Part shown: positions 1,072 to 24,629 of the stretch, piece by piece
How the letters are laid out: every line of letters starts with the position of its first letter
How positions within the stretch are numbered: position 1 is the first letter of the stretch
Source: a virus
Direction: 5' to 3' (one strand)
Length of the DNA: 37,559 bases
Virus record (IMG/VR): IMGVR_UViG_3300022602_000234
Coordinates: 1 to 37,559 of that record
Notes under the pieces: generated by a model
What the model was told of the DNA's origin: nothing
Databases searched by the model: none
What the model saw: the letters and a program-made list of their open reading frames with translations, nothing else
Program-made: the position numbers and the translations under genes

Positions 1072-1099
1072 ATAATAGCTCAAATGGATAAGAAGTCAA
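1072..1099 (-). promoter_or_regulatory. Early-type promoter for the 183-1064 gene
   Basis: TTGACT at 1099-1094, 16-bp spacer, TATTAT at 1077-1072, then 7 bases to the ATG. It abuts the plus-strand late box at 1099-1106, so the two promoters are divergent. Confidence 0.6.
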
Positions 1100-1106
1100 A
1101 TAAATA
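1099..1106 (+). promoter_or_regulatory. Late-type box AATAAATA
   Basis: AATAAATA followed by 5 bases and the GTG start of the gene at 1112. The spacing matches other late-type boxes in the window and supports the GTG start. Confidence 0.5.
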
Positions 1107-1111
1107 GTATT

Positions 1112-1786
1112 GTGAAAGACAATGTTCTTGTAGTTTCTGATATTCATTTAGGAAGCCCAGTTTCTAAAGTAAAGGCATTAGCTAAAGTTCTAAAGAATGA
1201 AAAGTATAGTCATCTTATTATAAATGGAGATTTGTTTGATTCTAAGAATATTCATAGGTACAAGAAAGGTCATTGGAACATATTGAGTCTCATTAGAAAG
1301 GTATCTAAAAAGAAGAAAGTAACATTTATTCTAGGTAACCATGATTTGAAGTCTAAGAATATTATAAAGATATTAGGTTTAGAATTTGTTGAAAGATTAG
1401 AATTAACAATCAATAAAAAGAAGATGTTGTTTATTCATTTTCACCAGTTTGATCCATTTATTTTTAAGCATCCTTGGATAACTGATATAGCTGAAAGAAT
1501 CTATTATTTTTTTCAGAGTATTGATAGATCCAGAAAATTTAGTAGATGGTTAAAGAGGACATCAAAGTCATTCTTAAAGATTAAAGCTAATATAAGAGAC
1601 AAAGCTCTAAACTATATTAAAGACAAAAACTATGATGCCATTTTTGGAGGGCATATCCATTTTGCCGAAAGCTTTGTTTGTTCAGAATCAGGAAAAGAGT
1701 ATCACAATTCTGGGTCATTCTGTGATGAGCCTTGTCACTATCTTTTAATTGACAAGGAAGGTAAGGTTACTTTGAAAGAGATTTAG
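1112..1786 (+). CDS. Calcineurin-like metallophosphoesterase (LpxH-like subgroup)
   Basis: A 224-aa binuclear-metal phosphoesterase. The family signatures appear in order: D-x-H (residues 10-12, SDIHLG), GDLFD (39-43), GNHD (75-78), a histidine pair in FIHFHQFD (about 109-111) and GHIH (180-183). The IHFHQFD and GGHIHFAES segments recall UDP-2,3-diacylglucosamine hydrolase-like enzymes, but the substrate cannot be read from sequence. The start is GTG at 1112; an in-frame ATG upstream is absent. Its 3' end overlaps the convergent gene at 1783 by 4 bases. All ligands appear present, so it is probably active. Confidence 0.85.
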   Translation: MKDNVLVVSDIHLGSPVSKVKALAKVLKNEKYSHLIINGDLFDSKNIHRYKKGHWNILSLIRKVSKKKKVTFILGNHDLKSKNIIKILGLEFVERLELTINKKKMLFIHFHQFDPFIFKHPWITDIAERIYYFFQSIDRSRKFSRWLKRTSKSFLKIKANIRDKALNYIKDKNYDAIFGGHIHFAESFVCSESGKEYHNSGSFCDEPCHYLLIDKEGKVTLKEI

Positions 1787-2283
1787 ACTTTATTTTTTAA
1801 AGCAGGTGGGACTATAGTCTTACTATATCCTTCTCTCTCCAGACTATCTATAGAATCTATTTTATACTGTGGCCAAACTTTATTACCATCTTGATGTGTA
1901 TCAATGCCTACACCAAACTTTTGATAATCTTTCCAGTTATTAACAGGAGTAATCTTATAAGGTATATCTTTATTAACAAATTGACCATATGTGAAGTCAA
2001 TAATATTATTCTTATAGACAGGAGCAATATGAGCTACTTCCTTAAAGGATGGATTTAATTTAAGTGTTTCTTTACTAGGCCATGAAAATACAATAGCTTG
2101 TTCATCACCTCCTTTATCTTTAGCCCATTTACAAAAAGTTCTTGTAGCCCAAGCACAGTTTAAATGACCTTCACCATGAAGTGTATATTGATATTTTGAC
2201 AATACTTCACTTACAAACTTATTTGCTATATCATCAATTTTAGTGCCCTCTAAAATGAGATCTACCAATCTATCAAATTTCAT
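1783..2283 (-). CDS. Tagged late protein with possible papain/transglutaminase-type fold
   Basis: A 166-aa protein starting MKFDRLVDLILEG, one of the recurrent N-terminal tags in this window (I-L-E followed by G). After the tag, NCAWATRTFCKWAKDKG places a Cys at a helix start, followed by VAHIAPVYKNNIIDFTYGQF, giving a C...H...D/N order. That order is typical of papain-fold peptidases and transglutaminase-like enzymes, where the His precedes a D-x-T-x-x-Q-F strand. I infer a virion-packaged cysteine peptidase or acyltransferase; the family assignment is tentative. A late-type box lies 7 bases before the ATG. Confidence 0.6.
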   Translation of the reverse strand: MKFDRLVDLILEGTKIDDIANKFVSEVLSKYQYTLHGEGHLNCAWATRTFCKWAKDKGGDEQAIVFSWPSKETLKLNPSFKEVAHIAPVYKNNIIDFTYGQFVNKDIPYKITPVNNWKDYQKFGVGIDTHQDGNKVWPQYKIDSIDSLEREGYSKTIVPPALKNKV

Positions 2284-2289
2284 ATACTA

Positions 2290-2451
2290 TTATTTATTTA
2301 ACCTATTAAACTTCTTAAGTCTTCTACCAGCCTTTCTACCTCTCTTATAAACCTTCTTTGTTTTCTTAAAGATCATCCAAAAGAATATACCAAACCCTAT
2401 CACCATAAACAACATTGCTATATGGAATATAAACAATGTTGACTGGTACAT
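2290..2451 (-). CDS. Small basic membrane protein, 53 aa
   Basis: MYQSTLFIFHIAMLFMVIG begins a single transmembrane helix (about residues 5-28). It is followed by a strongly basic cytoplasmic tail rich in K and R (KKTKKVYKRGRKAGRRLKK). The start ATG at 2451 is 5 bases after a late-like ATTAAGTA. The gene fills the gap between 2283 and 2460 on the same strand as its neighbours. Function unknown; a membrane-anchored nucleic-acid-binding peptide is one possibility. Confidence 0.6.
   Translation of the reverse strand: MYQSTLFIFHIAMLFMVIGFGIFFWMIFKKTKKVYKRGRKAGRRLKKFNRLNK
2291..2298 (-). promoter_or_regulatory. Late-type box AATAAATA
   Basis: Seven bases before the ATG at 2283; it overlaps the stop region of the 53-aa gene upstream. 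Confidence 0.5.
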
Positions 2452-2459
2452 AATATTAC

Positions 2460-2837
2460 TTAATCTTCTTCCTCTTCCCCTGGTACTAATTCAAGTGTTC
2501 TCTTTTTATATTCTTCGAGCTCATCCTTACCAAGTGACTCATGTTCATAAGAAATACAATCTTCAGGTGGATTGAGAAACCATTCAATTTCATTCATGAT
2601 ACCTCTCTTAAGAACATGCTGAATAAGATGAACTTCAGCATCTTCAAGAGTACCAAATTCCTCTACTCCTATATCTCTCATAATATAACCATGATGCTCT
2701 ACTTCATACTCAACCTTATCTCCATAATAGTAATGAGTACTAATTCTAAAATGACAATCACAATCCTTATGATGGTCTCCCCCAATTAGGTCATACCAGA
2801 TTTTATTGAGCTCAATTATCTTTTCATGGTTTGTCAT
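2460..2837 (-). CDS. Hypothetical acidic protein, 125 aa
   Basis: No family recognised. The N-terminal third has GGDHHKDCDCHFRI, a His/Cys cluster that could bind a metal, followed by a mixed alpha/beta region and an acidic end (GEEEED). It starts one base downstream of the preceding gene's stop, so it is probably co-translated with 2839-3183. Confidence 0.65.
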   Translation of the reverse strand: MTNHEKIIELNKIWYDLIGGDHHKDCDCHFRISTHYYYGDKVEYEVEHHGYIMRDIGVEEFGTLEDAEVHLIQHVLKRGIMNEIEWFLNPPEDCISYEHESLGKDELEEYKKRTLELVPGEEEED

Positions 2838-2838
2838 A

Positions 2839-3183
2839 TTACATAAACCTTTTAATTAAATTATTACAGCTAATATAATATTCGTATGTTAGAGGGTCTC
2901 TAGAGTCTAAAGCTTCATGCATGTTATCAATATTTTCATCTAAACTTCCTTCTAAGTCTTTCTTATAATCAGGATTAAGCTTAGAACTAATTAAGTCAAT
3001 AATAGGAGAAACATCCTTATCAGACAAATGAAAAGTAATTTCAGACTGATCATATTCTGAACCGTAGTTAAACTTTAGTGTTAACTCGACTGGAGGATGA
3101 AACAACCCGCTGAAAGGTTGACCGGAAAAGTCAGAAAAGTAACTTGCTTCTTCGTGCTGTTTAGGTGTTATAATTTTTTTCAT
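2839..3183 (-). CDS. Hypothetical protein, 114 aa
   Basis: No family recognised; a mixed alpha/beta protein with FSDFSGQPFSGLFHPPVELTLKF near the start, in which the run SGQPFSGLFHPP is Pro/Gly-rich. I choose the ATG at 3183 (MKKIITPKQHEE) rather than the ATG three codons upstream because it forms a 4-base ATGA overlap with the phosphatase gene's stop, the coupling style common in this window. Confidence 0.65.
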   Translation of the reverse strand: MKKIITPKQHEEASYFSDFSGQPFSGLFHPPVELTLKFNYGSEYDQSEITFHLSDKDVSPIIDLISSKLNPDYKKDLEGSLDENIDNMHEALDSRDPLTYEYYISCNNLIKRFM

Positions 3184-4776: not shown

Positions 4777-5505
4777 CTACTGACAGTGATAATTGAGATA
4801 GCGTTGAGCAGCCTTGGCTGTTAACCCGCCTTTACCTTTTAACGTTCTAGCCTTACTACAGGTTAATTTACCTTTAACTTGACGTTTTAGAATTCCTGGA
4901 TGACGAGGTTCGTCTATAGACTTTTCAAAAAATAATTTAAAAGATTCGTGCATATTAATTTTATCAAATTCTTGATCAAGGTAAGTAGCTATAGAAGTGT
5001 TATCGTAAAGACTTGATTGAAGCTTAATAGCTATACCTCCATGCTCATTCCAATTTCTAACATACGGATCAAAGTCATCAATAAGAACATTTGGTGAACC
5101 GTCTTGATTAACTGCAAATATAGATTTATGTTTAGGAAATTCTATACCTAAAAGATGCTTACCATATTTTGGAATAATATGCTTACTAAGCCAATCCTGC
5201 TTTCCTCTTATACATTCTTCTGTCTCAATAGGAGAGGGATGAGTACAAATATAAAACCCTTCAAACTTCTCTATAACTTTTTTAATTAAAACATCGTTAG
5301 TTGGATAGGGATCAAGGTCGGCAAATACATTATAAGTACCGCCTAGCTTCTGATAAAACTCTTCTTTATTTTGCCAAATGCTTCGAGCCTTTTGCTTTTC
5401 TTCATCTGTAACCTGAGCGTAGTTTTTATGATAAATTTTTTGACCGATAAAGTCATAAAGGTTAGCAAGCAACCCATCCATGTCTAAGTAGCATTTAGGC
5501 TTCAT
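4777..5505 (-). CDS. HAD-superfamily 5'(3')-deoxyribonucleotidase-like protein
   Basis: A 242-aa protein. The N-terminus YLDMDGLLANLYDF gives the HAD nucleophile motif D-x-D-G (D8, D10). THPSP is a plausible motif II, and VLIDDFDPYV supplies the acidic motif IV. Together with the length this fits deoxyribonucleotidases that act on nucleoside monophosphates. Unusually, about 40 basic residues are appended at the C-terminus (KRQVKGKLTCSKARTLKGK, then TAKAAQRYLNYH), a segment I associate with T4-like phage virion-associated proteins. It overlaps the upstream gene by 4 bases. Confidence 0.7.
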   Translation of the reverse strand: MKPKCYLDMDGLLANLYDFIGQKIYHKNYAQVTDEEKQKARSIWQNKEEFYQKLGGTYNVFADLDPYPTNDVLIKKVIEKFEGFYICTHPSPIETEECIRGKQDWLSKHIIPKYGKHLLGIEFPKHKSIFAVNQDGSPNVLIDDFDPYVRNWNEHGGIAIKLQSSLYDNTSIATYLDQEFDKINMHESFKLFFEKSIDEPRHPGILKRQVKGKLTCSKARTLKGKGGLTAKAAQRYLNYHCQ

Positions 5506-6752
5506 TTGAGAGCAATTTTAGGATTACCCATTGATATACTTGTAATAACAACATGTTCACCGATTTTATCGGCAGGTATATATCTCCATCCATTTTTTGA
5601 CACAACAAACAATCCAGTAATACCGTTTTGATCAAACGGAAATAATTTTCTAATATTGTTTTCGTTTTCTAATTTCTCTTTGAGATCTTCAATTTTTTTT
5701 GATAATTTTAATTTTTTTATAGCTTTACAAAATTCACTATATGTTGCCCCGCCTTCTTTAGTTATATTAAGTTTCTTTACAGTAAGAGCTCTATCAACTT
5801 TATGAGCCTCATCATCTATCACATTATCTATTTCTTTAGATTTATTACTATCTTTAACTCCATAATATTTTTGAAGTGTATTTTTTATCGCTTGTACGCT
5901 TTCTTTGTCTTGTTCCTCATTATCATGTTCGTCTCTATTTACTTCTTTATGTAAATTTTCAATTGTTTTTAACAACGTTAAAATAGATGTAATAAAATAT
6001 TTTTTACGTTCAATAACATTTTCTGATGTTGTTTCATCTATATTTTTACCTAGTCTATAAGAATATTTTTCACTAGTTAAAAGAGATAAAGGTAATTCTC
6101 CTAAATTTTTAGTTACAGCATTTATAAAACCATCTAAGGACCAATCTTCTTTTTCTATTTGTAATTTTTTTAAAATTTCTTTATTTATAGTTTTTTGTTC
6201 TTCTGGAGCAAGAATTTCATATTCTTTTTTAATATTATCTAATACCTTCCATACTGTACCGGTTATTGTGTTACCGAGTTCTCTGCCCATTTTACCCACC
6301 CGAACATTACCTTCTTTTTTAACTTCAAATTTAAACTTAGGATCAGCTTCGCTAGGCCAAGAAACATCATAAGGGTTACCTTGACCGGAAATTAATTTAG
6401 CACAATCAGATACGGTTGTATAACCTGAAATTAAAGAAGCTACAGAATATTCACCAGGACCTACCCCTGTTAACGGTTTACCGCTTTTATCTCTAACTAC
6501 TGTTTCATCTGCACCTACAACATCCCCGCTATCTGTTTTATTTGTTACACTATATAAAACTTTTTGAGGGCCTTCCCAAGGCTTCTCATCAATAACAACT
6601 GTGTCTTTATCAAATCCATTTGCAAAAGGAGGTACCTCTTCTTTTTCGTAAACTAAACGATAAGATTCAGACAAAGAACGAAAAGGAGACTTAGCTTTGT
6701 TAGCTTTGTAAACAGCATCGTAGGTTTTCTTAAGGAAGTAATCCTGGGACAT
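5502..6752 (-). CDS. Large hypothetical late protein with tag-like N-terminus, 416 aa
   Basis: It starts MSQDYFLKKTYDAVYKAN and contains LSESYRLVYEKEE at about residues 27-39, which resembles the LAEAYxxI tag seen at the extreme N-terminus of other genes here. The body is lysine-rich and mostly helical in the middle (two Lys/Glu-rich stretches at about 245-350), with a globular end (ITGLFVVSKNGWRYIPADKIG). No enzyme motif seen. A late-type box is 6 bases before the ATG. I infer a virion-internal or core protein; function unknown. Confidence 0.65.
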   Translation of the reverse strand: MSQDYFLKKTYDAVYKANKAKSPFRSLSESYRLVYEKEEVPPFANGFDKDTVVIDEKPWEGPQKVLYSVTNKTDSGDVVGADETVVRDKSGKPLTGVGPGEYSVASLISGYTTVSDCAKLISGQGNPYDVSWPSEADPKFKFEVKKEGNVRVGKMGRELGNTITGTVWKVLDNIKKEYEILAPEEQKTINKEILKKLQIEKEDWSLDGFINAVTKNLGELPLSLLTSEKYSYRLGKNIDETTSENVIERKKYFITSILTLLKTIENLHKEVNRDEHDNEEQDKESVQAIKNTLQKYYGVKDSNKSKEIDNVIDDEAHKVDRALTVKKLNITKEGGATYSEFCKAIKKLKLSKKIEDLKEKLENENNIRKLFPFDQNGITGLFVVSKNGWRYIPADKIGEHVVITSISMGNPKIALK

Positions 6753-6758: not shown

Positions 6759-6766
6759 TATTTAAT
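6759..6766 (-). promoter_or_regulatory. Late-type box ATTAAATA
   Basis: Six bases before the ATG at 6752. Confidence 0.5.
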
Positions 6767-7064: not shown

Positions 7065-7151
7065 TGGTGGGCAGGAGTGGATTCGAACCACTGAAGGCAA
7101 TAGCCAGAAGATTTACAGTCTTCCCCGTTTGTCCAGCTTCGGTACCTACCC
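7065..7151 (-). tRNA. tRNA-Tyr (anticodon GUA)
   Basis: The reverse strand folds as a class II tRNA with a long variable arm. The acceptor GGGUAGG pairs with CCUGCCC. The anticodon loop CUGUAAA gives GUA, and the T arm is AGUGG-UUCGAAU-CCACU. A CCA end is encoded at 7067-7065. The 87-nt length and long variable arm are as expected for bacterial tRNA-Tyr. It sits in a short gap between two minus-strand protein genes. This is the only tRNA I found in the window. Confidence 0.95.
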
Positions 7152-8045: not shown

Positions 8046-8282
8046 TTAAGCCCAAGGAATAGCAGAAAGCTGAAGAACGGCAGTAGCCTGAGCTAAAGCA
8101 GTATCATTTGTCCAAATTCCTGCTGCAGCATACTGATCTGGTCCATCCCAAAGAATAATTGGTCGAGGAAGCCCTTGAATCTTTGCAACAATTTTCTTTT
8201 GAACAAAGAGATCTCTTACTGCTTCAATAACGAGAGGGTCGGCAAGTGTTACTACTTCTGCTTGTTGTACTGTAATGTCCAT
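8046..8282 (-). CDS. Hypothetical late protein, 78 aa
   Basis: MDITVQQAEVVTLADP begins a compact hydrophobic protein with GLPRPIILWDGPDQY and AGIWTNDTALAQA. It has no recognised domain; the low charge and small size would suit a structural or accessory virion protein. A CATAAATA late-type box is 6 bases before the ATG. Confidence 0.65.
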   Translation of the reverse strand: MDITVQQAEVVTLADPLVIEAVRDLFVQKKIVAKIQGLPRPIILWDGPDQYAAAGIWTNDTALAQATAVLQLSAIPWA

Positions 8283-8288: not shown

Positions 8289-8296
8289 TATTTATG
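8289..8296 (-). promoter_or_regulatory. Late-type box CATAAATA
   Basis: Six bases before the ATG at 8282; no Shine-Dalgarno in between. Confidence 0.6.
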
Positions 8297-8305: not shown

Positions 8306-8623
8306 TTAAAAGCCACGAGTTATTTTATTATGCATGTCTTCTAAATTAAATGCAATTTCACGAAGTTTTTCACCAGCTAGACCTTTAATATCACTACAAT
8401 GTTTTTTAAGCCAACGAGAGTCTCTTAATAATTGCTCATAAGGATCATCTTCAGGTTCAGGATTAATAGGATATTTTTTAAAATCTCTATCATCAGTTCC
8501 TAGAGGTACATAGGAAGGTGGTGAAAAAGAACGTTCAGGATTATTATCTTCAGAAGATTTTTCCTTAAGAACTTTTACTTTACTATAAGCTTCAATTAAA
8601 AATTCTGTTTCTCTATTTTTCAC
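8306..8623 (-). CDS. Tagged hypothetical protein, 105 aa (LIEAYSKV tag)
   Basis: It starts at GTG 8623 with MKNRETEFLIEAYSKVKVL, a variant of the LAEAY tag; a cut after L-I-E would match a T4 gp21-like prohead protease site. The remainder is charged and polar, with a Pro-rich stretch (FSPPSYVPLG, INPEPEDDP) and a helical end. No enzymatic motif. I infer a capsid-internal protein from the tag. Confidence 0.65.
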   Translation of the reverse strand: MKNRETEFLIEAYSKVKVLKEKSSEDNNPERSFSPPSYVPLGTDDRDFKKYPINPEPEDDPYEQLLRDSRWLKKHCSDIKGLAGEKLREIAFNLEDMHNKITRGF

Positions 8624-8637
8624 AGAAACAAATTAAA

Positions 8638-8901: not shown

Positions 8902-8907
8902 ATATTA

Positions 8908-8915
8908 TATTTATT
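8908..8915 (-). promoter_or_regulatory. Late-type box AATAAATA
   Basis: Six bases before the ATG at 8901. Confidence 0.6.
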
Positions 8916-9753: not shown

Positions 9754-9761
9754 TACTTATG
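9754..9761 (-). promoter_or_regulatory. Late-type box CATAAGTA
   Basis: Five bases before the ATG at 9748, overlapping the stop of the upstream gene. Confidence 0.5.
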
Positions 9762-10378: not shown

Positions 10379-10386
10379 TACTTATG
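10379..10386 (-). promoter_or_regulatory. Late-type box CATAAGTA
   Basis: Four bases before the ATG at 10374. Confidence 0.45.
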
Positions 10387-11074: not shown

Positions 11075-11082
11075 TATTTATT
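11075..11082 (-). promoter_or_regulatory. Late-type box AATAAATA
   Basis: Six bases before the ATG at 11068. Confidence 0.6.
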
Positions 11083-12111: not shown

Positions 12112-12119
12112 TATTTATT
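12112..12119 (-). promoter_or_regulatory. Late-type box AATAAATA, overlapping a divergent box
   Basis: Six bases before the ATG at 12105. It shares three bases with the plus-strand box at 12117-12124, so two late-type promoters fire in opposite directions from one 13-bp element. Confidence 0.55.
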
Positions 12120-13612: not shown

Positions 13613-13620
13613 TATTTAAG
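13613..13620 (-). promoter_or_regulatory. Late-type box CTTAAATA
   Basis: Six bases before the ATG at 13606, directly after a minus-strand terminator. Confidence 0.5.
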
Positions 13621-14649: not shown

Positions 14650-14657
14650 TATTTATT
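14650..14657 (-). promoter_or_regulatory. Late-type box AATAAATA
   Basis: Six bases before the ATG at 14643. Confidence 0.6.
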
Positions 14658-15187: not shown

Positions 15188-15195
15188 TATTTAAT
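15188..15195 (-). promoter_or_regulatory. Late-type box ATTAAATA
   Basis: Six bases before the ATG at 15181; overlaps the stop of the upstream gene. Confidence 0.5.
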
Positions 15196-16943: not shown

Positions 16944-16950
16944 TGTATTA

Positions 16951-16958
16951 TATTTATT
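16951..16958 (-). promoter_or_regulatory. Late-type box AATAAATA
   Basis: Seven bases before the ATG at 16943. Confidence 0.5.
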
Positions 16959-16960
16959 AT

Positions 16961-17263
16961 CTATAGCCTATCACCAGCAGTGTTTGTATTTGCCTGATTA
17001 GGTGTTAAACCGGCTTGAGAAAACTTTCTAGAAGATTGAGTGTAGCTTACAACATTTTTAATGAGAGTATAGATATAAGGCACTTCTTTAGCTGTCTCCA
17101 ACAAAGCTGTATTAACTTTACTCAGAGTATCTGGATCTAATTTATTTAAAAATCTTACTAAAAATACCTGAATTTTTTTATGTAGTATATCTGCAGAGTT
17201 TTCTTCTACTGCTTCATTAAGATTATAGTTATGTTTATTGTTTCCATAATAATAATATTTCAT
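16961..17263 (-). CDS. Tagged paralogue of the glycine-zipper protein's N-terminal domain, 100 aa
   Basis: It starts MKYYYYGNNKHNYNLNEAVEEN (L-N-E followed by A), the same tag layout as 14278. The following VRFLNKLDPDTLSKVNTAL matches LLNKLKEIDPDTYNKVSQAI in the 349-aa protein, so the two share a domain but differ in tag and lack or have the glycine zipper. A late-type box is 8 bases before the ATG. Function unknown. Confidence 0.65.
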   Translation of the reverse strand: MKYYYYGNNKHNYNLNEAVEENSADILHKKIQVFLVRFLNKLDPDTLSKVNTALLETAKEVPYIYTLIKNVVSYTQSSRKFSQAGLTPNQANTNTAGDRL

Positions 17264-17271: not shown

Positions 17272-17279
17272 TATTTATG
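17272..17279 (-). promoter_or_regulatory. Late-type box CATAAATA
   Basis: Eight bases before the ATG at 17263, a slightly longer gap than most. Confidence 0.45.
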
Positions 17280-18523: not shown

Positions 18524-18543
18524 AGATTTATATTATAGTCTTC

Positions 18544-19023
18544 TTAGATTGATGCAAGAGCTTTCTTCTTGTATCGAGTATTATCTAGATCCCCATTGAT
18601 AAGGGTCTTGTACTTGTGACAGGAAGGGCAAAGGATCTGAAGATTGGAAGGATGATTGTATTCGTTTTTAGATCCATATCGTCCATCAATATGGTCTACC
18701 TCAAACTGTTTGATAGCTTGGATCATCTTAAACTCCTCTGTCATAGCCCTGAGCTCTAGATCATCATGAAAGGGTCTACAGCACTTGTCAAAGTGTTCTA
18801 GAAGAGTATCGTAACAGATCTTACACCGAACATCCTCTGGCTCCATTTGTCCGAAGGCTATCAATCGATGGGCGTCTCTGGTGGCTTGCTTCCCTACCCG
18901 AGCCTTATCATAGTACCAGTAATGGCGGGTACACAATTGATGATGAGGTCCTTGGGTTCTTTTTTTAGGAAGGCATTTCTCCGTGCACCCTTCCACCCTA
19001 CAATGAATGTTCTTAATTTTCAT
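18544..19023 (-). CDS. HNH endonuclease, 159 aa
   Basis: The C-terminal half holds the HNH core: FEVDHIDGRYG, HPSNLQILCPSCHKYK, giving D-H, N and the C-x2-C-H ending of zinc-stabilised HNH nucleases. Upstream Cys/His clusters (CRVEGCTEKC, LCTRHYWYYDKAR, CKICYDTL...CC) look like additional zinc sites. Such free-standing HNH proteins in phages are often homing endonucleases. It has a strong early-type promoter with 6 bases to the ATG. Confidence 0.85.
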   Translation of the reverse strand: MKIKNIHCRVEGCTEKCLPKKRTQGPHHQLCTRHYWYYDKARVGKQATRDAHRLIAFGQMEPEDVRCKICYDTLLEHFDKCCRPFHDDLELRAMTEEFKMIQAIKQFEVDHIDGRYGSKNEYNHPSNLQILCPSCHKYKTLINGDLDNTRYKKKALASI

Positions 19024-19029
19024 ACTATC

Positions 19030-19058
19030 AGTATAAAGTTTCTTTGTAGGGTGGTCAA
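19030..19058 (-). promoter_or_regulatory. Early-type promoter for the HNH gene
   Basis: TTGACC (19058-19053), 17-bp spacer, TATACT (19035-19030), GATAGT, ATG. Confidence 0.75.
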
Positions 19059-19066
19059 GCTCTTTT

Positions 19067-19390
19067 CTAGGATACTCTGAACGCTAGCACTCCCTTCTTA
19101 CAACGATGCTGACGATAGACAATACCTTCATCCTTAAGCTTTTTATAGACGGTTCCATTCATCTGATTCTTCATCATAAAGCCATTACCTACTGGAGTAT
19201 CGTAATAGGGGTAGATAGCCTTAGCCGACACCTTCCTTCTAGCCCTTGGCTTGTGCTTCAAAGGCTTCTTCGTTGTTGGCTTCTTCTTTACCTTTGGAGC
19301 TACCTCTTCCTCTTCTATTGGCTCAATGAAGACAATAGGAGTTGGAGCACTGAAGAAGGACCTGATGACGGTTTTGATGTAGTTTAGCAT
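19067..19390 (-). CDS. Hypothetical basic protein, 107 aa
   Basis: An N-terminal hydrophobic segment (MLNYIKTVIRSFFSAPTPIVF) is followed by an acidic patch (EPIEEEE), a very basic linker (KVKKKPTTKKPLKHKPRARRK) and a compact end with YRQHRCKKGVLAF. No domain recognised. The leader is A/C-rich and G-less (repeated CAA), with no Shine-Dalgarno; see also 22655 and 22905. Confidence 0.65.
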   Translation of the reverse strand: MLNYIKTVIRSFFSAPTPIVFIEPIEEEEVAPKVKKKPTTKKPLKHKPRARRKVSAKAIYPYYDTPVGNGFMMKNQMNGTVYKKLKDEGIVYRQHRCKKGVLAFRVS

Positions 19391-19409
19391 GTTGTTGTTT
19401 GGTTGTTGT

Positions 19410-19613
19410 TTATTTGATTTCTTCGATTGTTACTTTGAATGATTGATCGGCTGTATTCCATTGTCCGGACTTCAGAACGAACTCCGTCTTTGATCCATTA
19501 GAAGCTACTGTAGATACAGAAGCCCATCCGACATCATGGTCGGTGATAGAGCTAATGATGGATTCAGTAATCTGATCCTTGGTTAGGACGGTTGGTTCTT
19601 TCTTAATTTTCAT
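19410..19613 (-). CDS. Hypothetical small protein, 67 aa
   Basis: MKIKKEPTVLTKDQITESII begins a small alpha/beta protein with no recognised family. Early-type promoter with exactly 6 bases to the ATG; the A-rich start ATGAAAATTAAG is shared by many genes with this promoter type. Confidence 0.65.
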   Translation of the reverse strand: MKIKKEPTVLTKDQITESIISSITDHDVGWASVSTVASNGSKTEFVLKSGQWNTADQSFKVTIEEIK

Positions 19614-19619
19614 ACGATC

Positions 19620-19648
19620 AGTATAAAGGATCTTTATAGGATCGGCAA
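19620..19648 (-). promoter_or_regulatory. Early-type promoter for the 19410-19613 gene
   Basis: TTGCCG (19648-19643), 17-bp spacer, TATACT (19625-19620), GATCGT, ATG. Confidence 0.75.
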
Positions 19649-19686
19649 GCCTTAAAGGCCATAGCCATCAAAGTCTTCGTCCATAG

Positions 19687-19872
19687 CTATTCTAGGGTAC
19701 TATAAAGGTGATATACGTGTCGACCGATATGACCATTGAATGTCATACGCTCTACCCAAGAACCATGGGTCGTATCCATCATGGACATAAAGAGCAATGA
19801 TGGCTTCCGTACTTCATAGCCTAGAAGGCGAAGGAAGAAGGTATAAGGATTATTCAGGAATGATTTAAACAT
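19687..19872 (-). CDS. Hypothetical small protein, 61 aa
   Basis: MFKSFLNNPYTFFLRLLGYE has an amphipathic, aromatic start that may associate with a membrane; the rest is polar with several His and Met. No family recognised. Early-type promoter with 6 bases to the ATG. Confidence 0.6.
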   Translation of the reverse strand: MFKSFLNNPYTFFLRLLGYEVRKPSLLFMSMMDTTHGSWVERMTFNGHIGRHVYHLYSTLE

Positions 19873-19878
19873 ACATTA

Positions 19879-19907
19879 ATAATAGCAGCAGCTGCAGGAT
19901 ACGGCAA
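19879..19907 (-). promoter_or_regulatory. Early-type promoter for the 19687-19872 gene
   Basis: TTGCCG (19907-19902), 17-bp spacer, TATTAT (19884-19879), TAATGT, ATG. Confidence 0.7.
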
Positions 19908-19915
19908 TAGGAAAT

Positions 19916-19985
19916 TGCCTACAATAGCTAGTTTCTGTCATGAACACTACTTGCAAGATATCCTTGAAAGCTGCTATTGTAGGCA
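19916..19985 (+). repeat. 13-bp inverted repeat in front of the plus-strand HNH gene
   Basis: TGCCTACAATAGC (19916-19928) and GCTATTGTAGGCA (19973-19985) are perfect inverted copies around a 44-base loop. The right arm ends inside the late-type box at 19984-19991. Long transcripts through here would fold; transcripts starting from the late box would not contain the stem. Confidence 0.75.
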
Positions 19986-19991
19986 TAAATA
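19984..19991 (+). promoter_or_regulatory. Late-type box CATAAATA
   Basis: Eight bases before the HNH start at 20000 and overlapping the right arm of the inverted repeat. Confidence 0.5.
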
Positions 19992-19999
19992 TTATAGTC

Positions 20000-20647
20000 A
20001 TGAACAATACAAATGCTACGCAGGAACTATCTTATTACGAAAAGAATAAAAAACGAATAACAGCACGTAGAGCTGCGAATAGAGAGCTGCTTAGAATTAA
20101 GGCTAATGAATTCTACGCAAGAAATAAAGAGAAAGTAAAGGCTAAAAATAAGCAATACCGTTTAAGCAATTTAGAAAAGGTAAGAGAGTATTTTAAAACT
20201 AATAAAGAAGTATTAAAGGAACAAAGGCAAAAACATTATATTGAGAATAGAGACCGTATTCTAGCTAGAAGAAGAAAACTTATTAAGCATAGACTCAACA
20301 ACGATCCTTTATTTAAAATAGCTCACACACTAAGATGCAGAGTTTTAGATGCTCTTAAAGGAAGATATAAGAGTGCTCCTACTCTAGAGCTTCTAGGATG
20401 TTCTATTGAAGAAGCCAAAAAGCATATAGAAACTCAATGGCTGCCTGGTATGACTTGGGATAATCATTCTCTACATGGATGGCATATAGACCATATTATA
20501 CCTATCGATACTTTTGATCTAGCCGACTATAAACAACAGAAGGTGTGCTTTCACTATTCTAATCTCAGACCTCTTTGGGCTACTGATAATCTTTCTAGAC
20601 CTAAAGACGGTTCAGATATCGTCGTTGATAATCTCGTATTGAAATGA
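20000..20647 (+). CDS. HNH homing-endonuclease-like protein, 215 aa
   Basis: The N-terminal half is a long Arg/Lys/Asn-rich helix with repeats of the YxxNxExxRAxxxxYR type (ELLRIKANEFYARNKEKVKAKN, YIENRDRILARRRK). The C-terminal half has LLGCSIEEAKKHIETQW and the HNH core GWHIDHIIPIDTFDL ... FHYSNLRPLWATDNLSR. This is a known phage HNH architecture. I start at ATG 20000, after the late box, not at the ATG 20 codons upstream, which lies in the hairpin loop. Its last 36 bases overlap the opposing gene at 20612. Confidence 0.85.
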   Translation: MNNTNATQELSYYEKNKKRITARRAANRELLRIKANEFYARNKEKVKAKNKQYRLSNLEKVREYFKTNKEVLKEQRQKHYIENRDRILARRRKLIKHRLNNDPLFKIAHTLRCRVLDALKGRYKSAPTLELLGCSIEEAKKHIETQWLPGMTWDNHSLHGWHIDHIIPIDTFDLADYKQQKVCFHYSNLRPLWATDNLSRPKDGSDIVVDNLVLK

Positions 20648-20818
20648 TTCAATAGAACATTCGTAAGCATCAGCTATAGCATCTCCTAGATCCTCTTCTA
20701 GGTTACAACTATCAGGAAAGACAAATTCAATCTCTACTGGCAGTTCGGCCAACAGATCCTCATCGGTTGTATCCCAGTAGATATCCGTGACCTTGATCTT
20801 ATTGGTTAGCTCAGGCAT
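20612..20818 (-). CDS. Hypothetical acidic protein, 68 aa
   Basis: MPELTNKIKVTDIYWDTTDE starts a strongly acidic small protein, beta then helical, with no recognised family. It overlaps the upstream gene by 8 bases and runs 36 bases into the opposing HNH gene, so its C-terminus may have been altered when the HNH gene arrived. Confidence 0.6.
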   Translation of the reverse strand: MPELTNKIKVTDIYWDTTDEDLLAELPVEIEFVFPDSCNLEEDLGDAIADAYECSIESFQYEIINDDI

Positions 20819-21065
20819 ACAGTTCCTCCATAGTTGATTGATTGCACACCTTCTGAATGTTCTCCATCCTACCAGCTAACAAAGCCTTATCTGTGTAGTA
20901 TTTAACACCAGAATCAATATCATTCTGAATTGTATAACCCTCTACAACGTATCCAGAGGCGTTTGCTTGGATCATACTTGAAAGCCATCCAATAATGTAG
21001 GTTGAAGACTCTCCGGCCTCTTCCATAAGCCCGATGAGATGTTTTACGGTGTTCTTATTTTTCAT
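20811..21065 (-). CDS. Hypothetical helical protein, 84 aa
   Basis: I start at ATG 21065 (MKNKNTVKHLIGLMEEAG) because the early-type promoter places its TATACT exactly 6 bases upstream; a longer frame would cross that promoter. Helical with a GYVVEGYTIQNDIDSG segment. No family recognised. Confidence 0.65.
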   Translation of the reverse strand: MKNKNTVKHLIGLMEEAGESSTYIIGWLSSMIQANASGYVVEGYTIQNDIDSGVKYYTDKALLAGRMENIQKVCNQSTMEELYA

Positions 21066-21071
21066 ACGATC

Positions 21072-21100
21072 AGTATAAAGGAAGGCAAAAGGAACTTCAA
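21072..21100 (-). promoter_or_regulatory. Early-type promoter for the 20811-21065 gene
   Basis: TTGAAG (21100-21095), 17-bp spacer, TATACT (21077-21072), GATCGT, ATG. Confidence 0.75.
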
Positions 21101-21111
21101 GCGGAAAAGTA

Positions 21112-21483
21112 CTATCTCTTGGAGGCAGCCAGAAGAGCAGATTGAGGATCCATGTAAAGATCTCCAACCTTATTACCACTTCCTGGGGCTACATCCTTAG
21201 CAATAACAGCGAAAGCAGTATCAGTACCCATCTTCAAAGGACGGACAATAGACTTCGTAGTAGGACCTTTAACCAAAAGACCATCGAATTCAGGAGTATT
21301 AAGCTTCTTAAGAGTAGCTACTACCTGATCAATAGGAGCTGATTGATACTTCTGATTCCCGCCATTAAAAATAACGTAAGTAATGTCCTTGCTTACGCCC
21401 TCGTCTCCAGAAAAACTGCCTATTGTTTCGTTAACAAAATTATTGAATTTATTCATATTATTATTTATGTTCTTATTTTTCAT
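21112..21483 (-). CDS. Hypothetical protein with nested early and late starts, 123 or 114 aa
   Basis: Two starts are plausible. ATG 21483 follows an early-type promoter (TATACT, 6 bases). ATG 21456, nine codons in, follows a CATAAATA late-type box by 5 bases and gives MNKFNNFVNETIGSFSG, which resembles the MSFKQFVTEA tag (V-N-E followed by T). The body is a beta-rich globular domain (DITYVIFNGGNQKYQSAP, TAFAVIAKDVAPGSGNKVGDLY). No enzyme motif. Both products may be made at different times (inference). Confidence 0.65.
   Translation of the reverse strand: MKNKNINNNMNKFNNFVNETIGSFSGDEGVSKDITYVIFNGGNQKYQSAPIDQVVATLKKLNTPEFDGLLVKGPTTKSIVRPLKMGTDTAFAVIAKDVAPGSGNKVGDLYMDPQSALLAASKR
21462..21469 (-). 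promoter_or_regulatory. Internal late-type box CATAAATA
   Basis: Lies inside the first codons of the longer frame, 5 bases before the in-frame ATG at 21456. Confidence 0.5.
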
Positions 21484-21489
21484 ACGATC

Positions 21490-21518
21490 AGTATATTGGA
21501 TTTCTGTTGGAACCTCAA
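21490..21518 (-). promoter_or_regulatory. Early-type promoter for the 21112-21483 gene
   Basis: TTGAGG (21518-21513), 17-bp spacer, TATACT (21495-21490), GATCGT, ATG. Its -35 overlaps the stop of the gene upstream. Confidence 0.75.
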
Positions 21519-21706
21519 GCAGGAAGTTCAATAAAGAGAACCTCCTCTCCATGATAACTTATATAGCCATCCTTGGATGTTTTTTTATCATAACCCTCAA
21601 AGAACTCATCCTTGGTAATTCCCTCCTCATCCAGAACTTCCTGGAGATCAAAGTTGGTGGTCTTGCCAGTGTAGAGATCTACTTCTAGGTATTTCTTATT
21701 TTTCAT
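21515..21706 (-). CDS. Hypothetical acidic protein, 63 aa
   Basis: MKNKKYLEVDLYTGKTTNFD begins a small acidic protein (EVLDEEGITKDEFFEGYDKK) with no recognised family. Early-type promoter with 6 bases to the ATG; its stop overlaps the next promoter. Confidence 0.65.
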   Translation of the reverse strand: MKNKKYLEVDLYTGKTTNFDLQEVLDEEGITKDEFFEGYDKKTSKDGYISYHGEEVLFIELPA

Positions 21707-21712
21707 ACTATT

Positions 21713-21741
21713 ATTATGGCTTGGTTATAAGGAAAGGTCAA
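21713..21741 (-). promoter_or_regulatory. Early-type promoter for the 21515-21706 gene
   Basis: TTGACC (21741-21736), 17-bp spacer, CATAAT (21718-21713), AATAGT, ATG. Confidence 0.7.
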
Positions 21742-21743
21742 GT

Positions 21744-21962
21744 CTATTCTTCGTCAGAGTCTTCTTGAGCCTCTTTAATAGCTCCCTTTACATCCTTAAC
21801 CCTATCATTCTTACACAATATACCATCCTTCAGGAAGATGAGATCGTATTGATCGTCAGCAATAATCTCAGCTACTACATCGATATCTACTCCTTTAGGG
21901 ATAGAAACAAGAGTAACTCCGAGCAGTTCAAAGTCCGACTTGATGGTGTTCTTATTTTTCAT
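21744..21962 (-). CDS. Hypothetical acidic protein, 72 aa
   Basis: MKNKNTIKSDFELLGVTLVS begins a small alpha/beta protein with acidic C-terminus (EAQEDSDEE). No family recognised. It has an early-type promoter with exactly 6 bases to the ATG. Confidence 0.65.
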   Translation of the reverse strand: MKNKNTIKSDFELLGVTLVSIPKGVDIDVVAEIIADDQYDLIFLKDGILCKNDRVKDVKGAIKEAQEDSDEE

Positions 21963-21968
21963 ACGTTC

Positions 21969-21997
21969 AGTATATTGGAATTTGGAAGGAACTGCAA
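21969..21997 (-). promoter_or_regulatory. Early-type promoter for the 21744-21962 gene
   Basis: TTGCAG (21997-21992), 17-bp spacer, TATACT (21974-21969), GAACGT, ATG. Confidence 0.75.
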
Positions 21998-21999
21998 GC

Positions 22000-22197
22000 T
22001 TAAACCTCTACATCATACTCCTCCATAAGATCTTGAAGAGAGTCCAAAGCATACTCTACAACCCAGGCCTTAAAAGACTCTCTATCCTTTAGGTTATGTC
22101 CACCTTTAGTAGCGTTCTTTTGAAGCTGTTTTAGAACATCATCTCCCCAATGATTTTGAAGTTGAAGATAGATGGTGTCGGTGTTCTTATTTTTCAT
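22000..22197 (-). CDS. Hypothetical helical protein, 65 aa
   Basis: MKNKNTDTIYLQLQNHWGDD begins a helical protein ending LQDLMEEYDVEV. No family recognised. Its promoter is nearly identical over 40 bases to that of 21744-21962, so the two units may derive from a duplication of the promoter cassette. Confidence 0.65.
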   Translation of the reverse strand: MKNKNTDTIYLQLQNHWGDDVLKQLQKNATKGGHNLKDRESFKAWVVEYALDSLQDLMEEYDVEV

Positions 22198-22203
22198 ACG
22201 TTC

Positions 22204-22232
22204 AGTATATTGGAATTTGGTTGGAACTGCAA
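22204..22232 (-). promoter_or_regulatory. Early-type promoter for the 22000-22197 gene
   Basis: TTGCAG (22232-22227), 17-bp spacer, TATACT (22209-22204), GAACGT, ATG. Confidence 0.75.
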
Positions 22233-22242
22233 GTCTAGATTA

Positions 22243-22273
22243 GGGGATCCAGACCCTTATCGTCTGGATCCCC
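22243..22273. repeat. Perfect 12-bp hairpin after the GC-rich gene
   Basis: GGGGATCCAGAC (22243-22254) and GTCTGGATCCCC (22262-22273) with a 7-base loop. It follows the stop of the minus-strand gene at 22299 and could end its transcript or protect its 3' end, but no strong U-run follows on the minus strand. Confidence 0.7.
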
Positions 22274-22298
22274 ATTGGGCGGCTTCTTGGCAGAATTC

Positions 22299-22655
22299 TT
22301 ATGCCGTGACGGCCTGAGCCTTCTCAGCGGCCCGAGCTGCGATGGCGGCCTTCGATCGTGAAGGACGAGCCTTCTTGGCCGTCTGAACCTCTGTACGAAC
22401 CTCTTGGATCTTCTCGTCCAGGGTCTTCTTCGCCTTCTCTTTAACCTTGGCGCCTCGGCCTACGAAGGTCTCAAGGAGCTGACGAATGCTTCCAGCCTTC
22501 TGGATCTTGTTCTTCAAGTTCGAACCAAAGCAAGTATAAGAACCCGAGCCTTGGTTACACTCGATGACCGGGGTCGGGAGCGTATTATAGGTCTCGAAGT
22601 AGTTCTCAAGATACTCGATGACTTCGACTGGTACTGCGTTGTTGTTTGTCTGCAT
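22299..22655 (-). CDS. GC-rich gene, degenerate paralogue of the zinc protein at 30505, 118 aa
   Basis: Residues about 25-70 (LPTPVIECNQGSG, TCFGSNLKNKIQKAG, RQLLETFVGRG) align with LKIPCSKCDGSSTAFGSNLEGKIKKAG...LLDTFTCRAC of the 30505 gene, but most zinc Cys are lost. The C-terminus is a Lys/Ala/Arg-rich helix (RPSRSKAAIAARAAEKAQ), suggesting nucleic-acid binding. Base composition is clearly GC-richer than its neighbours, a sign of separate origin or codon adaptation. The leader is the CAA-type, about 36 bases from the promoter's expected start. Confidence 0.65.
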   Translation of the reverse strand: MQTNNNAVPVEVIEYLENYFETYNTLPTPVIECNQGSGSYTCFGSNLKNKIQKAGSIRQLLETFVGRGAKVKEKAKKTLDEKIQEVRTEVQTAKKARPSRSKAAIAARAAEKAQAVTA

Positions 22656-22697
22656 GGTGGTGTTGTTTTTGGGTTGGTTGTTTTATTCTACTCTTCT

Positions 22698-22726
22698 ATT
22701 ATGATTGATCTTTAAAGGAACTTCAA
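22698..22726 (-). promoter_or_regulatory. Early-type promoter with a real 5' leader
   Basis: TTGAAG (22726-22721), 17-bp spacer, CATAAT (22703-22698). Expected start near 22691, about 36 bases before the ATG at 22655, unlike the other early promoters here. Confidence 0.65.
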
Positions 22727-22728
22727 GC

Positions 22729-22962
22729 TTAATCCTCGTCTCCATCTTCATCCTCGTCTCCGTCTTGAAGAACGAGATAAACATCCACACCCTCTCCTTC
22801 TAGAGTGAATACATCTTCAGTGAATTCATCACTAAGATAGACTGTCTGATTGAGGTCCTCTTCTGAGCACTTATTGAGTTGATCACGTAGGTCTTTGTAT
22901 GTCATGGTGGTGTTGTTTTTGGGTTGGTTGTTACTGCCGGAAACGTTGTTCTTATTTTTCAT
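22729..22962 (-). CDS. Small acidic protein with MTYKDLRDQLNKCSEEDLNQ core, 77 aa
   Basis: From Met 20 onward (ATG 22905) the sequence MTYKDLRDQLNKCSEEDL resembles a widespread small bacterial and phage protein type of unknown role, ending in a run of Asp/Glu (QDGDEDEDGDED). The early promoter sits 6 bases before ATG 22962, which adds an in-frame MKNKNNVSGSNNQPKNNTT. That extension is a translation of the CAA-type leader, identical for 30 bases to the untranslated leader of the 22655 gene. Either start may be used. Confidence 0.65.
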   Translation of the reverse strand: MKNKNNVSGSNNQPKNNTTMTYKDLRDQLNKCSEEDLNQTVYLSDEFTEDVFTLEGEGVDVYLVLQDGDEDEDGDED

Positions 22963-22968
22963 ACATTC

Positions 22969-22997
22969 ATTATGGCTCATTGATGGAGGAACCGCAA
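22969..22997 (-). promoter_or_regulatory. Early-type promoter for the 22729-22962 gene
   Basis: TTGCGG (22997-22992), 17-bp spacer, CATAAT (22974-22969), GAATGT, ATG. Confidence 0.7.
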
Positions 22998-22999
22998 GA

Positions 23000-23176
23000 T
23001 TATTCGCAGGAACCTTCATCGATGTCGATAACCACAGCCTGACAATCTACATCGATAGAAACATCTCGGATCTGATACTGATAGCCATTAGGATCAATAA
23101 TAGCAATCTCCATATCAGCAAGTTGATTCTTCTGGTTCCGCTCTTCTAGGTACTGAATGAATTCTTTAATTTTCAT
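23000..23176 (-). CDS. Hypothetical acidic protein, 58 aa
   Basis: MKIKEFIQYLEERNQKNQLA begins a helix, followed by beta-like YQYQIRDVSIDVDCQAVVID. Acidic end. No family recognised. Early-type promoter with exactly 6 bases to the ATG and the usual ATGAAAATTAAA start. Confidence 0.65.
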   Translation of the reverse strand: MKIKEFIQYLEERNQKNQLADMEIAIIDPNGYQYQIRDVSIDVDCQAVVIDIDEGSCE

Positions 23177-23182
23177 ACGATC

Positions 23183-23211
23183 AGTGTATTGGAGTTCAGA
23201 AGGAACTGCAA
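23183..23211 (-). promoter_or_regulatory. Early-type promoter for the 23000-23176 gene
   Basis: TTGCAG (23211-23206), 17-bp spacer, TACACT (23188-23183), GATCGT, ATG. Confidence 0.7.
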
Positions 23212-23900: not shown

Positions 23901-23914
23901 GAGAGAAAAAAAGC

Positions 23915-23943
23915 TTGTAGAAATCGGAGAGAGAAACTACTAT
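23915..23943 (+). promoter_or_regulatory. Early-type promoter, plus strand
   Basis: TTGTAG (23915-23920), 17-bp spacer, TACTAT (23938-23943), 9 bases to the ATG at 23953. Confidence 0.5.
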
Positions 23944-23952
23944 ATATTCCTT

Positions 23953-24072
23953 ATGATCCATTACCTAACATCCCATAAAGAAGATATAATAGCCGTTGTC
24001 TGTTATGTTCTAGGAGTAGTTCTAGTCTTTAGTCTTCTTAGTAAGGCTACCCAGATCAGAGAGAGAAAATAG
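23953..24072 (+). CDS. Small membrane protein, 39 aa
   Basis: MIHYLTSHKEDIIAVVCYVL leads into one transmembrane helix (IIAVVCYVLGVVLVFSLL) and a basic end (KATQIRERK), a typical single-pass N-out topology. An early-type promoter lies 9 bases upstream. The stop falls inside a series of AGAGAGAAAA repeats. Function unknown. Confidence 0.5.
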   Translation: MIHYLTSHKEDIIAVVCYVLGVVLVFSLLSKATQIRERK

Positions 24073-24102
24073 AGAGAGAAAAACTATAGAGAGAAAAACC
24101 TA
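24054..24102 (+). repeat. AGAGAGAAAA tandem-like repeats
   Basis: The unit AGAGAGAAAA occurs three times within about 45 bases, and related copies lie at 23900-23910 and 30954-30964. In the last place it directly precedes an ATG, so it might serve as a purine-rich ribosome site. Confidence 0.5.
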
Positions 24103-24198
24103 GTAAAAGCCCTAGCTAGCATCCCGGCTCCATTGGATGTCTAAGTTAAAAGGAAGCCGTAAAACACTTAGATAGGCAAAATAATAACTAAGTAATAT

Positions 24199-24279
24199 AT
24201 GCACGATTTCATATCTGATGTAGCTTTGCCTATATTATTCTTAGTATCTATATATTTCTATATAAGAGCTAATAGATAA
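24199..24279 (+). CDS. Possible 26-aa membrane peptide
   Basis: MHDFISDVALPILFLVSIYF is one hydrophobic helix with a basic end (YIRANR). No strong promoter, only an AT-rich leader (AACTAAGTAATAT). It resembles the other single-helix peptides nearby but support is weak. Confidence 0.35.
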   Translation: MHDFISDVALPILFLVSIYFYIRANR

Positions 24280-24313
24280 AGAAGAATTCGCCTAGATGGA
24301 CTAAGCAAAATCT

Positions 24314-24514
24314 TTATCGATTAATAAACTTGCTTAAACGCTCTTTGAACTGATCGTTGAACTGACTAACAAACTTATCTAAAGCAGCGTTGGCACCCTG
24401 TAAACCGCTATTCTTTGCAACATTTGCTAATTGATCAATATCTAAAACAACTGTATAAACATCTTTCTTTGTATCTGTATCATTCTTTAAGTTAATTTCT
24501 ATAAAAGTTTTCAT
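24314..24514 (-). CDS. Hypothetical protein, 66 aa
   Basis: MKTFIEINLKNDTDTKKDVY begins a beta hairpin, followed by two helices with GLQGANAALDKF. No family recognised. The leader TAAATAACAACGAAAT weakly resembles a late-type box. Last minus-strand gene before the switch to plus-strand genes. Confidence 0.6.
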   Translation of the reverse strand: MKTFIEINLKNDTDTKKDVYTVVLDIDQLANVAKNSGLQGANAALDKFVSQFNDQFKERLSKFINR

Positions 24515-24621
24515 ATTTCGTTGTTATTTAGCTTGCTTTCTTCTCTATTTCCACTATTCTTTTGTATACCCGTCTATTTCTATGTATTCTTTTATCTTTT
24601 ACTCATTATTTTATCCTTTAA

Positions 24622-24629
24622 CTTAAATA
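24622..24629 (+). promoter_or_regulatory. Late-type box CTTAAATA
   Basis: Eight bases before the ATG at 24638. Confidence 0.4.

Follow-up and report, generated by a model that had tools for sequence, protein, structure and literature searches.

The window analysed here, i.e. the whole 37,559-base virus record IMGVR_UViG_3300022602_000234, contains 91 open reading frames (ORFs), each opened at its first ATG, most of which are on the minus strand up to ~24.5 kb and, past that point, on the plus strand; its GC content is 35%. Many of these ORFs are preceded by an A+T-rich octamer of the TATAAATA type, hereafter the box, which ends only a few nucleotides (nt) before the start codon and resembles the late promoter of phage T4, the textbook case of a viral sigma switch in late transcription. 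Based on the boxes of the window and of related contigs, we consider it very probable that these elements are gp55-type late promoters set so close to the start codons that the late mRNAs have no leader or almost none.

By overall frequency the octamer is ordinary, as, with one mismatch allowed at most, TATAAATA is found 137 times in the window vs 135.6 times in shuffled sequence, and the claim is therefore solely one of position. Within 50 nt upstream of the 91 ORFs, 12 of 13 [ACT]ATAAATA octamers end 4-8 nt before the ATG, and when HTTAAATA and HATAAGTA are added a box lies at this distance in 22 of the 91 ORFs, vs a mean of 0.49 and a maximum of 4 in 500 dinucleotide-preserving shuffles. 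This comparison had been set beforehand by the original prediction, and it confirms that the placement of late-type octamers before start codons is real and far above chance. On both strands together the window holds 20 [ACT]ATAAATA, 15 of which are followed after 4-9 nt by an ATG ORF of ≥50 codons, while one more (at 1099) lies 5 nt ahead of the GTG of 1112-1786; the four without such placement are located at 30243 (+), 34388 (-), 34203 (-) and 6182 (-). If the class 'late' is defined by any of the four octamer types ending 4-9 nt before the start, it comprises 23 of the 91 ORFs. Two of these may not be genes (12130-12522 + and 24638-24811 +) and three further starts qualify (the in-frame internal ATGs 20000 + and 21456 - and GTG 1112), so that ~24 box genes stand where ~25 had been predicted, and the feature extends beyond its originally described end, to ~29 kb.

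A second class of starts was recognized by eye in the window, in which a sigma70-like promoter, GCTTGC..TTCC....TATACTGATCGT-ATG, also ends at the start codon (early class). A scan for the 3' part of this promoter retrieved a first set of nine contigs, all of which contain WATAAATA-N6-ATG, whereas the reversed control is absent from eight of the nine records (G005, 3 vs 4). The duplicates (G001, identical to G008, and G009, contained in G002) were removed from later counts but still included in the initial positional count of [ACT]ATAAATA over the contigs. G002 was excluded from the anagram test, base tables, orthologue counts and start-codon counts and is given separately; G002, G007, G010, G013, G023, G025 and G026 were cut to whole 20-kb tiles, leaving a few contig ends unread. 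In seven contigs (window included; 1153 ORFs) ATAAATA occurs 101 times at a distance d of 5-7 nt between box and start codon and 27 times over the 70 positions of d=20-89. With 101 occurrences at 5-7 nt it is the best of 21 anagrams; the next three (59, 32 and 29) are shifted registers of ATAAATA itself, and the remaining ones reach at most 14, some still being above their own background.

Contigs chosen by a gp55 relative rather than by a promoter behave in the same way. From 213 relatives the best 80 were kept, and 21 of these 80 loci, all >32 kb, were tested as a second set. ATAAATA-N5..7-ATG exceeds the reversed pattern in 21 of 21 contigs, with 227 vs 39 overall. Eight of the 21, picked after this test and mostly for length, were histogrammed (867 ORFs) and show 6 boxes at d=0-4, 47 at 5, 28 at 6, 14 at 7 and few beyond 13, and their top positional hexamer is TAAATA ending 5 nt before the ATG (88 vs 1.06 expected). 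The contigs are partly non-independent, as G023 and G030 share 20 kb at 78% and G004 and G012 share 10 kb at 74%.

The distance distribution has a sharp edge at 5 nt in the first set as well as in the gp55-selected contigs. In the numbering of the T4 late box given in part of PMC2988020 the first base is -13, which makes the last base -6 and a start codon 5 nt on +1; an edge at 5 nt is what would follow if start codons have to lie at or downstream of +1. The start codons found at d=5/6/7 in 15 contigs are ATG in 89/68/37, GTG in 20/5/1 and TTG in 1/0/0 cases, the excess of GTG over ATG at d=5 being significant (p=0.003), and none of the 26 GTG box ORFs is overlapped over more than half of its length by another called ORF. 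RNA polymerases favour a purine at +1, so that ATG and GTG but not TTG would be expected as starts after the box, and nearly all of the starts indeed begin with a purine, as in leaderless mRNAs. Moreover, Shine-Dalgarno (SD) motifs precede none of 190 box ORFs and none of 182 early-class ORFs, again as in leaderless genes.

The two start classes also differ in the genes they precede. In G003, G004 and G008 the 75 longest usable of 130 box ORFs and 75 of 117 early-class ORFs were scanned for families. The box-ORF families (25 shown of 71) include tail sheath, head maturation protease, sheath stabilizer, tail tube, head-tail adaptor and tail fibres, and baseplate wedge is also among the box genes of relatives, while the early-class families (25 shown of 49) include DNA polymerase, UvsX, UvsY, SSB, ribonucleotide reductase and dUTPase. 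Eleven of twenty box ORFs scanned singly gave matches, i.e. eight virion families, two PhoH and one HNH endonuclease. In the relatives late boxes precede mainly structural genes, as T4-type late promoters do, with exceptions. Exchange between the early and late classes is rare: 851 reciprocal-best orthologue pairs with <85% identity and aligned starts include 92 late-late pairs (24.5 expected) and 95 early-early pairs (35.2 expected) but 2 early-late pairs (58.8 expected), next to 154 early-neither and 405 neither-neither pairs. Fifty of the 92 late-late pairs have the same box spacing, and 3 of 190 late ORFs also pass the early definition.

A gp55-family sigma factor (phrog_234) is encoded in G003, G004 and G008/G001 (E values of 7e-25 to 3e-27); the other six of the 10 records searched, G002 included, gave no match. 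The gp55 of G004 matches 631 phage records, twelve listed ones being mostly cyanophage late sigma factors. A profile search finds gp55 in 11 of 16 environmental contigs (8 having been chosen for gp55), and L54, Y97 and T99, which a passage of the T4 gp55 structure paper (PMC7892883) names among the residues of the DNA pocket, are retained in 11 of 11 environmental homologues. Judged by eye, the C-terminus has no obvious counterpart of the hydrophobic tail of T4 gp55, nor obviously do those of the cyanophages S-PM2 and P-SSM2. Next to the gp55 genes of G003, G004 and G008/G001 lie gp46/gp47- and helicase-like genes, as read without a family search, and gp44 is present in G003, G004 and G008. 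The sliding clamp gp45 gave no match with phrog_223 in 10 of 10 records or with PF02916 in 6 of 6, but an iterated profile detects a gp45-type clamp in 9 of the 16 environmental contigs (presence only).

Many sigma factors recognize a TATA-type -10 element ~10 nt before +1, and the same contigs carry leaderless starts of the sigma70 type in which TATACT/TATAAT ends 6 nt before the ATG. The boxes might instead belong, as -10 elements, to a host sigma factor or another one, with messages that would still be leaderless. However, box ORFs have no -35 signal: TTG occurs at the -35 place in 34 of 190 of them vs 37 of 190 in a background stretch, and their base frequencies show no clear peak there. 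An 8-bp TATAAATA-like box at a fixed place without a conserved -35 element is what characterizes T4 late promoters. Furthermore, the late and early classes hardly pair among orthologues and divide mainly by function, and gp55 is present in the three long box-bearing contigs of the first set (G003, G004 and G008) but not in G002, which lacks boxes. We therefore regard a sigma factor other than gp55, from the host or elsewhere, as an improbable reader of the boxes.

Even less likely is that the octamer is a translation-initiation element, unstructured or S1-binding, in a leader transcribed from an upstream promoter. Start regions are often A-rich and unstructured, and A at -2 and T at -1 are also frequent in other ORFs (-1 T in 403 of 781 others, without separation of the classes). 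Such an element would, however, hardly account for the lead of ATAAATA over its anagrams, the sharp 5-nt edge, the association of the box mainly with the structural gene class and the finding that T4, S-PM2 and P-SSM2 carry the same box mostly 12-38 nt away. A chance product of low GC content and repeated-array codons, in line with the ordinary octamer counts and with boxes overlapping conserved C-terminal codons and the stop in the 25-27.6 kb array described below, is practically out of the question, since the shuffle test refutes it for position and the gp55-selected contigs show the same peak; chance from AT content is likewise rejected by shuffles, anagrams and the second set. Bias of the gene finder was also considered, since the TAA within a box at d=6, 9 or 12 is in frame and the ATG after it could then be called as the first one, and is ruled out because d=5 and d=7 are free of an in-frame TAA and d=5 is among the highest counts.

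Hence, we return to gp55-type late promoters fused to start codons. The T4-type identity that the original prediction had assigned to the boxes holds up in view of the gp55 homologues, the clamp detected by iterated profile, the mainly structural box genes of relatives and the missing -35 signal. We infer that the phage gp55-type sigma factor would direct the host RNA polymerase to the octamers late in infection, the box genes of the window itself presumably being late as well. The placement of the boxes would put the transcription start on, or a few bases from, the start codon, leaving no room for an SD site. As suggested by box geometry and start-codon use, late structural and head proteins would then be made from leaderless or nearly leaderless mRNAs, on which ribosomes would start directly at the 5' AUG or GUG.

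Several observations weigh against this interpretation. gp55 was not found in the window, which is a fragment of a large uncultured phage, and those of the window's box-gene proteins that were scanned against PHROG/Pfam gave no family except for 1112-1786 and 19940-20647, neither of which falls in a virion family. At the loose limit of E<=1 the sigma profile also matches 7 of 14 cellular control genomes, and the T4 gp55 residues N13, R57, E77 and H95 are not retained in the environmental homologues. Some box genes of relatives are non-structural (PhoH, thymidylate kinase, endonucleases). In G002 [ACT]ATAAATA lies at 4-8 nt in 0 of 198 ORFs vs 1.81 in shuffles; this 140 kb contig has early-class starts, TTGACA-type -35 elements are prominent in it, and it may use another late system or lack its late region. 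Boxes at 8-13 nt would result in leaders of a few bases, as the original prediction had allowed. The absence of SD motifs is partly forced as the box occupies their place, and one SD-like tetramer lies within the 6-nt spacer of a box ORF. Finally, 103 orthologue pairs are late-neither, i.e. many boxes appear not to be conserved or to be missed by the strict motif or the choice of start. These pairs, together with SD-like motifs in 12 of 48 other ORFs of the window, slightly lower our confidence, both here and in the wider loss of SD initiation considered next. Eight of the 12 are overlapping starts in the repeated array, where the Glu codons of the array supply the motif.

In all contigs but G002, SD-like motifs precede 77 of 781 other ORFs vs 58 of 781 in a control stretch, and in the eight gp55-selected contigs 42 of 867 ORFs. 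One may speculate, and we consider this possible although on balance not probable, that this T4-type lineage largely gave up SD initiation, early genes using leaderless sigma70 promoters and late genes start-codon-fused gp55 promoters, so that the change of sigma factor would switch the promoters while the mode of ribosome start stays the same, and phage-encoded ribosomal protein bS21 might retune host ribosomes to such mRNAs. bS21 exceeds the cut-off in the four longest box-bearing contigs (G003:15862, G004:167046, G008:190936 and G010:82208) and in the pelagiphage HTVC008M (HTVC008M:91228). No bS21 was found in T4, S-PM2, P-SSM2, phiM12 and Cr30 (KVP40 being below the cut-off), nor in G002 and 24 shorter contigs (window included, ~1.3 Mb together); it is therefore not universal, and its link to leaderless starts is weak. 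Among the five bS21 genes, a clear late-type box was seen only before the one in G003, and IF3 was not found in 16 contigs. Ribosomes carrying HTVC008M bS21 gave ~5% of wild-type GFP according to part of PMC6375957, the main text of which does not contain the word 'leaderless'. The connection between phage bS21 and leaderless starts is a lead, not a result, and start-codon-fused promoters make the role of phage-encoded bS21 testable.

The boxes of the window are compiled in Table 1.

Table 1. Late-type boxes of the window, with the early-class starts in the last line
Element	Position	Strand	Distance to start codon (nt)	Start and ORF	Remark
AATAAATA	1099..1106	+	5	GTG of 1112-1786	metallophosphoesterase-like
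AATAAATA	2291..2298	-	7	ATG of 1783-2283	
ATTAAATA	6759..6766	-	6	ATG of 5502-6752	
CATAAATA	8289..8296	-	6	ATG of 8046-8282	
AATAAATA	8908..8915	-	6	ATG of 8638-8901	MINKDAQLLAEAY...
CATAAGTA	9754..9761	-	5	ATG of 9311-9748	
CATAAGTA	10379..10386	-	4	ATG of 10147-10374	
AATAAATA	11075..11082	-	6	ATG of 10748-11068	box start within stop codon of 11081-11401
AATAAATA	12112..12119	-	6	ATG of 11791-12105	
CTTAAATA	13613..13620	-	6	ATG of 13400-13606	
AATAAATA	14650..14657	-	6	ATG of 14278-14643	
ATTAAATA	15188..15195	-	6	ATG of 14678-15181	
AATAAATA	16951..16958	-	7	ATG of 15894-16943	
CATAAATA	17272..17279	-	8	ATG of 16961-17263	
CATAAATA	19984..19991	+	8	in-frame internal ATG 20000 of 19940-20647	endonuclease VII-like; ATG 20000 could be the true start
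CATAAATA	21462..21469	-	5	nested in-frame ATG 21456 inside 21112-21552	114 aa
TATAAGTA	24807..24814	+	7	ATG of 24822-25142	
TATAAATA	25138..25145	+	5	ATG of 25151-25546	overlaps stop codon of upstream gene
TATAAATA	25901..25908	+	6	ATG of 25915-26247	overlaps stop codon of upstream gene
TATAAGTA	26243..26250	+	5	ATG of 26256-26561	overlaps stop codon of upstream gene
TATAAATA	26557..26564	+	5	ATG of 26570-26896	overlaps stop codon of upstream gene
TATAAGTA	26892..26899	+	5	ATG of 26905-27246	overlaps stop codon of upstream gene
TATAAATA	27552..27559	+	4	ATG of 27564-27923	overlaps stop codon of upstream gene
AATAAATA	28963..28970	+	9	ATG of 28980-29420	
early-class leaderless sigma70-like starts (TTGC..., TATACTGATCGT-ATG), not late boxes	18524..23210	-		e.g. 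before 19410-19613, 21744-21962, 22000-22197, 23000-23176	

The GTG start of 1112-1786 agrees with its best matches in G008, G005 and G025, which align from residues 1-4. In 21112-21552 an in-frame early-type start lies upstream of the late box and ATG 21456, and early and late protein forms with different N-termini are possible. For the 416-aa protein of 5502-6752 there was no PHROG/Pfam family, no relative in viral contigs and no match in phage records. More generally, the window has few traceable relatives: bases 1-25,000 have no near match among 50,697 phage records, a piece of G003 gave no useful near DNA match in phage records, searches of viral contigs for relatives of window proteins were unproductive, one search for window-protein matches returned none and another one weak match, and no host match was found in genome contigs.

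Sixteen tandem genes at 24.8-30.3 kb (24822-30317 +) and three at 11.1-12.1 kb (11081-12105 -) have a common C-terminal tail, ...LNPSTAKTFEELIDEL. In these nineteen small genes the tail, ~KAIKHWELKKSLNPSTAKTFEELIDEL in sequence, sits on otherwise dissimilar bodies, and an alignment search of viral contigs gave no relatives of them. In six plus-strand cases the tail directly precedes a box and reads GAC GAA/GAG CTA/TTA TAA, the stop codon lying within the box; in a seventh case, 11081-11401, it reads GAC GAA TTG TAA and the box starts inside the stop. Where the next ATG lies across the Asp codon of the tail (eight array cases, 11-nt overlap) this codon is necessarily GAT, and 25151-25546 has a 4-nt overlap with its neighbour via CTATGA. 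The codon choice in the array tail thus decides between promoter and overlapping start.

Many box genes in 8306-17263 (-) open with a short peptide ending in LAE-A, ILE-G, VTE-A or LNE-A, which we take to resemble the cleavage site of the T4 prohead protease gp21. Near the N-terminus, [LIVF]xE[AGS] is present in 10 of 23 late, 1 of 20 early and 9 of 48 other ORFs of the window and, in six other contigs, in 30 of 167 late, 14 of 162 early and 72 of 733 other ORFs; the window genes that contain it may encode internal head proteins. The window also contains a tRNA-Tyr gene (gta; 7065-7151 -) and a GIY-YIG/HNH homing-endonuclease-like gene (33656-34333 -) on the strand opposite to its neighbours.

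Leaderless transcripts are known from Thermus phages, although these did not surface in our literature search, and no report of leaderless late genes in T4-type phages was found in the open-licence literature as judged by titles and the beginnings of abstracts, phiKZ not being part of the search. In mycobacteria and other bacteria, leaderless genes have a -10 element close before ATG or GTG and no SD motif, and it is host sigma factors rather than a late sigma of a phage that recognize their promoters. The boxes resemble these genes in the close -10-type element and the missing SD motif and differ from them in the sigma factor.

T4 late promoters, which depend on the gp55 sigma, gp33 and the gp45 clamp, share with the boxes the 8-bp TATAAATA-type element without a -35 element; structural genes lie on both strands in either case, and relatives of the window encode gp55 and a gp45-type clamp. 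T4 differs in spacing, as the boxes in its 73-123 kb stretch lie 12-35 nt before the ATG, with two further ones at 70 and 73 nt, compared with 5-7 nt here. SD-like motifs are found in 31 of 54 ORFs of this stretch and in 69 of 134 over the T4 stretches, but not before the box ORFs studied here. The contrast with T4 leaders and SD sites that had been predicted at the outset is thus seen in the T4 73-123 kb stretch. The marine T4-like cyanophages S-PM2 and P-SSM2 share a NATAAATA box and gp55, as described in part of PMC2984593, but in S-PM2, P-SSM2 (first 240 kb) and KVP40 (first 200 kb) the boxes mostly lie 16-38 nt from the ATG, single close ones occurring at 5 nt in P-SSM2 and at 2 and 3 nt in S-PM2.

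A cultured counterpart is HTVC008M, a phage of Pelagibacter, with 8 boxes exactly 5 nt before an ATG. Four of its seven box genes checked encode virion proteins (tape measure, DNA end protector, tail-tube-associated baseplate protein and baseplate wedge), the other three a dioxygenase, a curli component and a hypothetical protein. HTVC008M differs in having SD-like motifs in 83 of 183 ORFs, so that only part of its genes look leaderless. Late-promoter prediction in pelagimyophages is described as unsuccessful in part of PMC7029224, which boxes this close to the start codon may explain. Recognizing such boxes would make it easier to assign the correct start codons and promoters in genomes of uncultured phages, 213 gp55 relatives having been matched in one search. 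Most boxes in the T4 stretch leave room for a leader, and more than half of its ORFs have SD-like motifs, whereas the same type of promoter appears to be fused to the start codon here, in all 21 of the gp55-bearing contigs examined from the environment and, for some of its genes, in one cultured pelagiphage.

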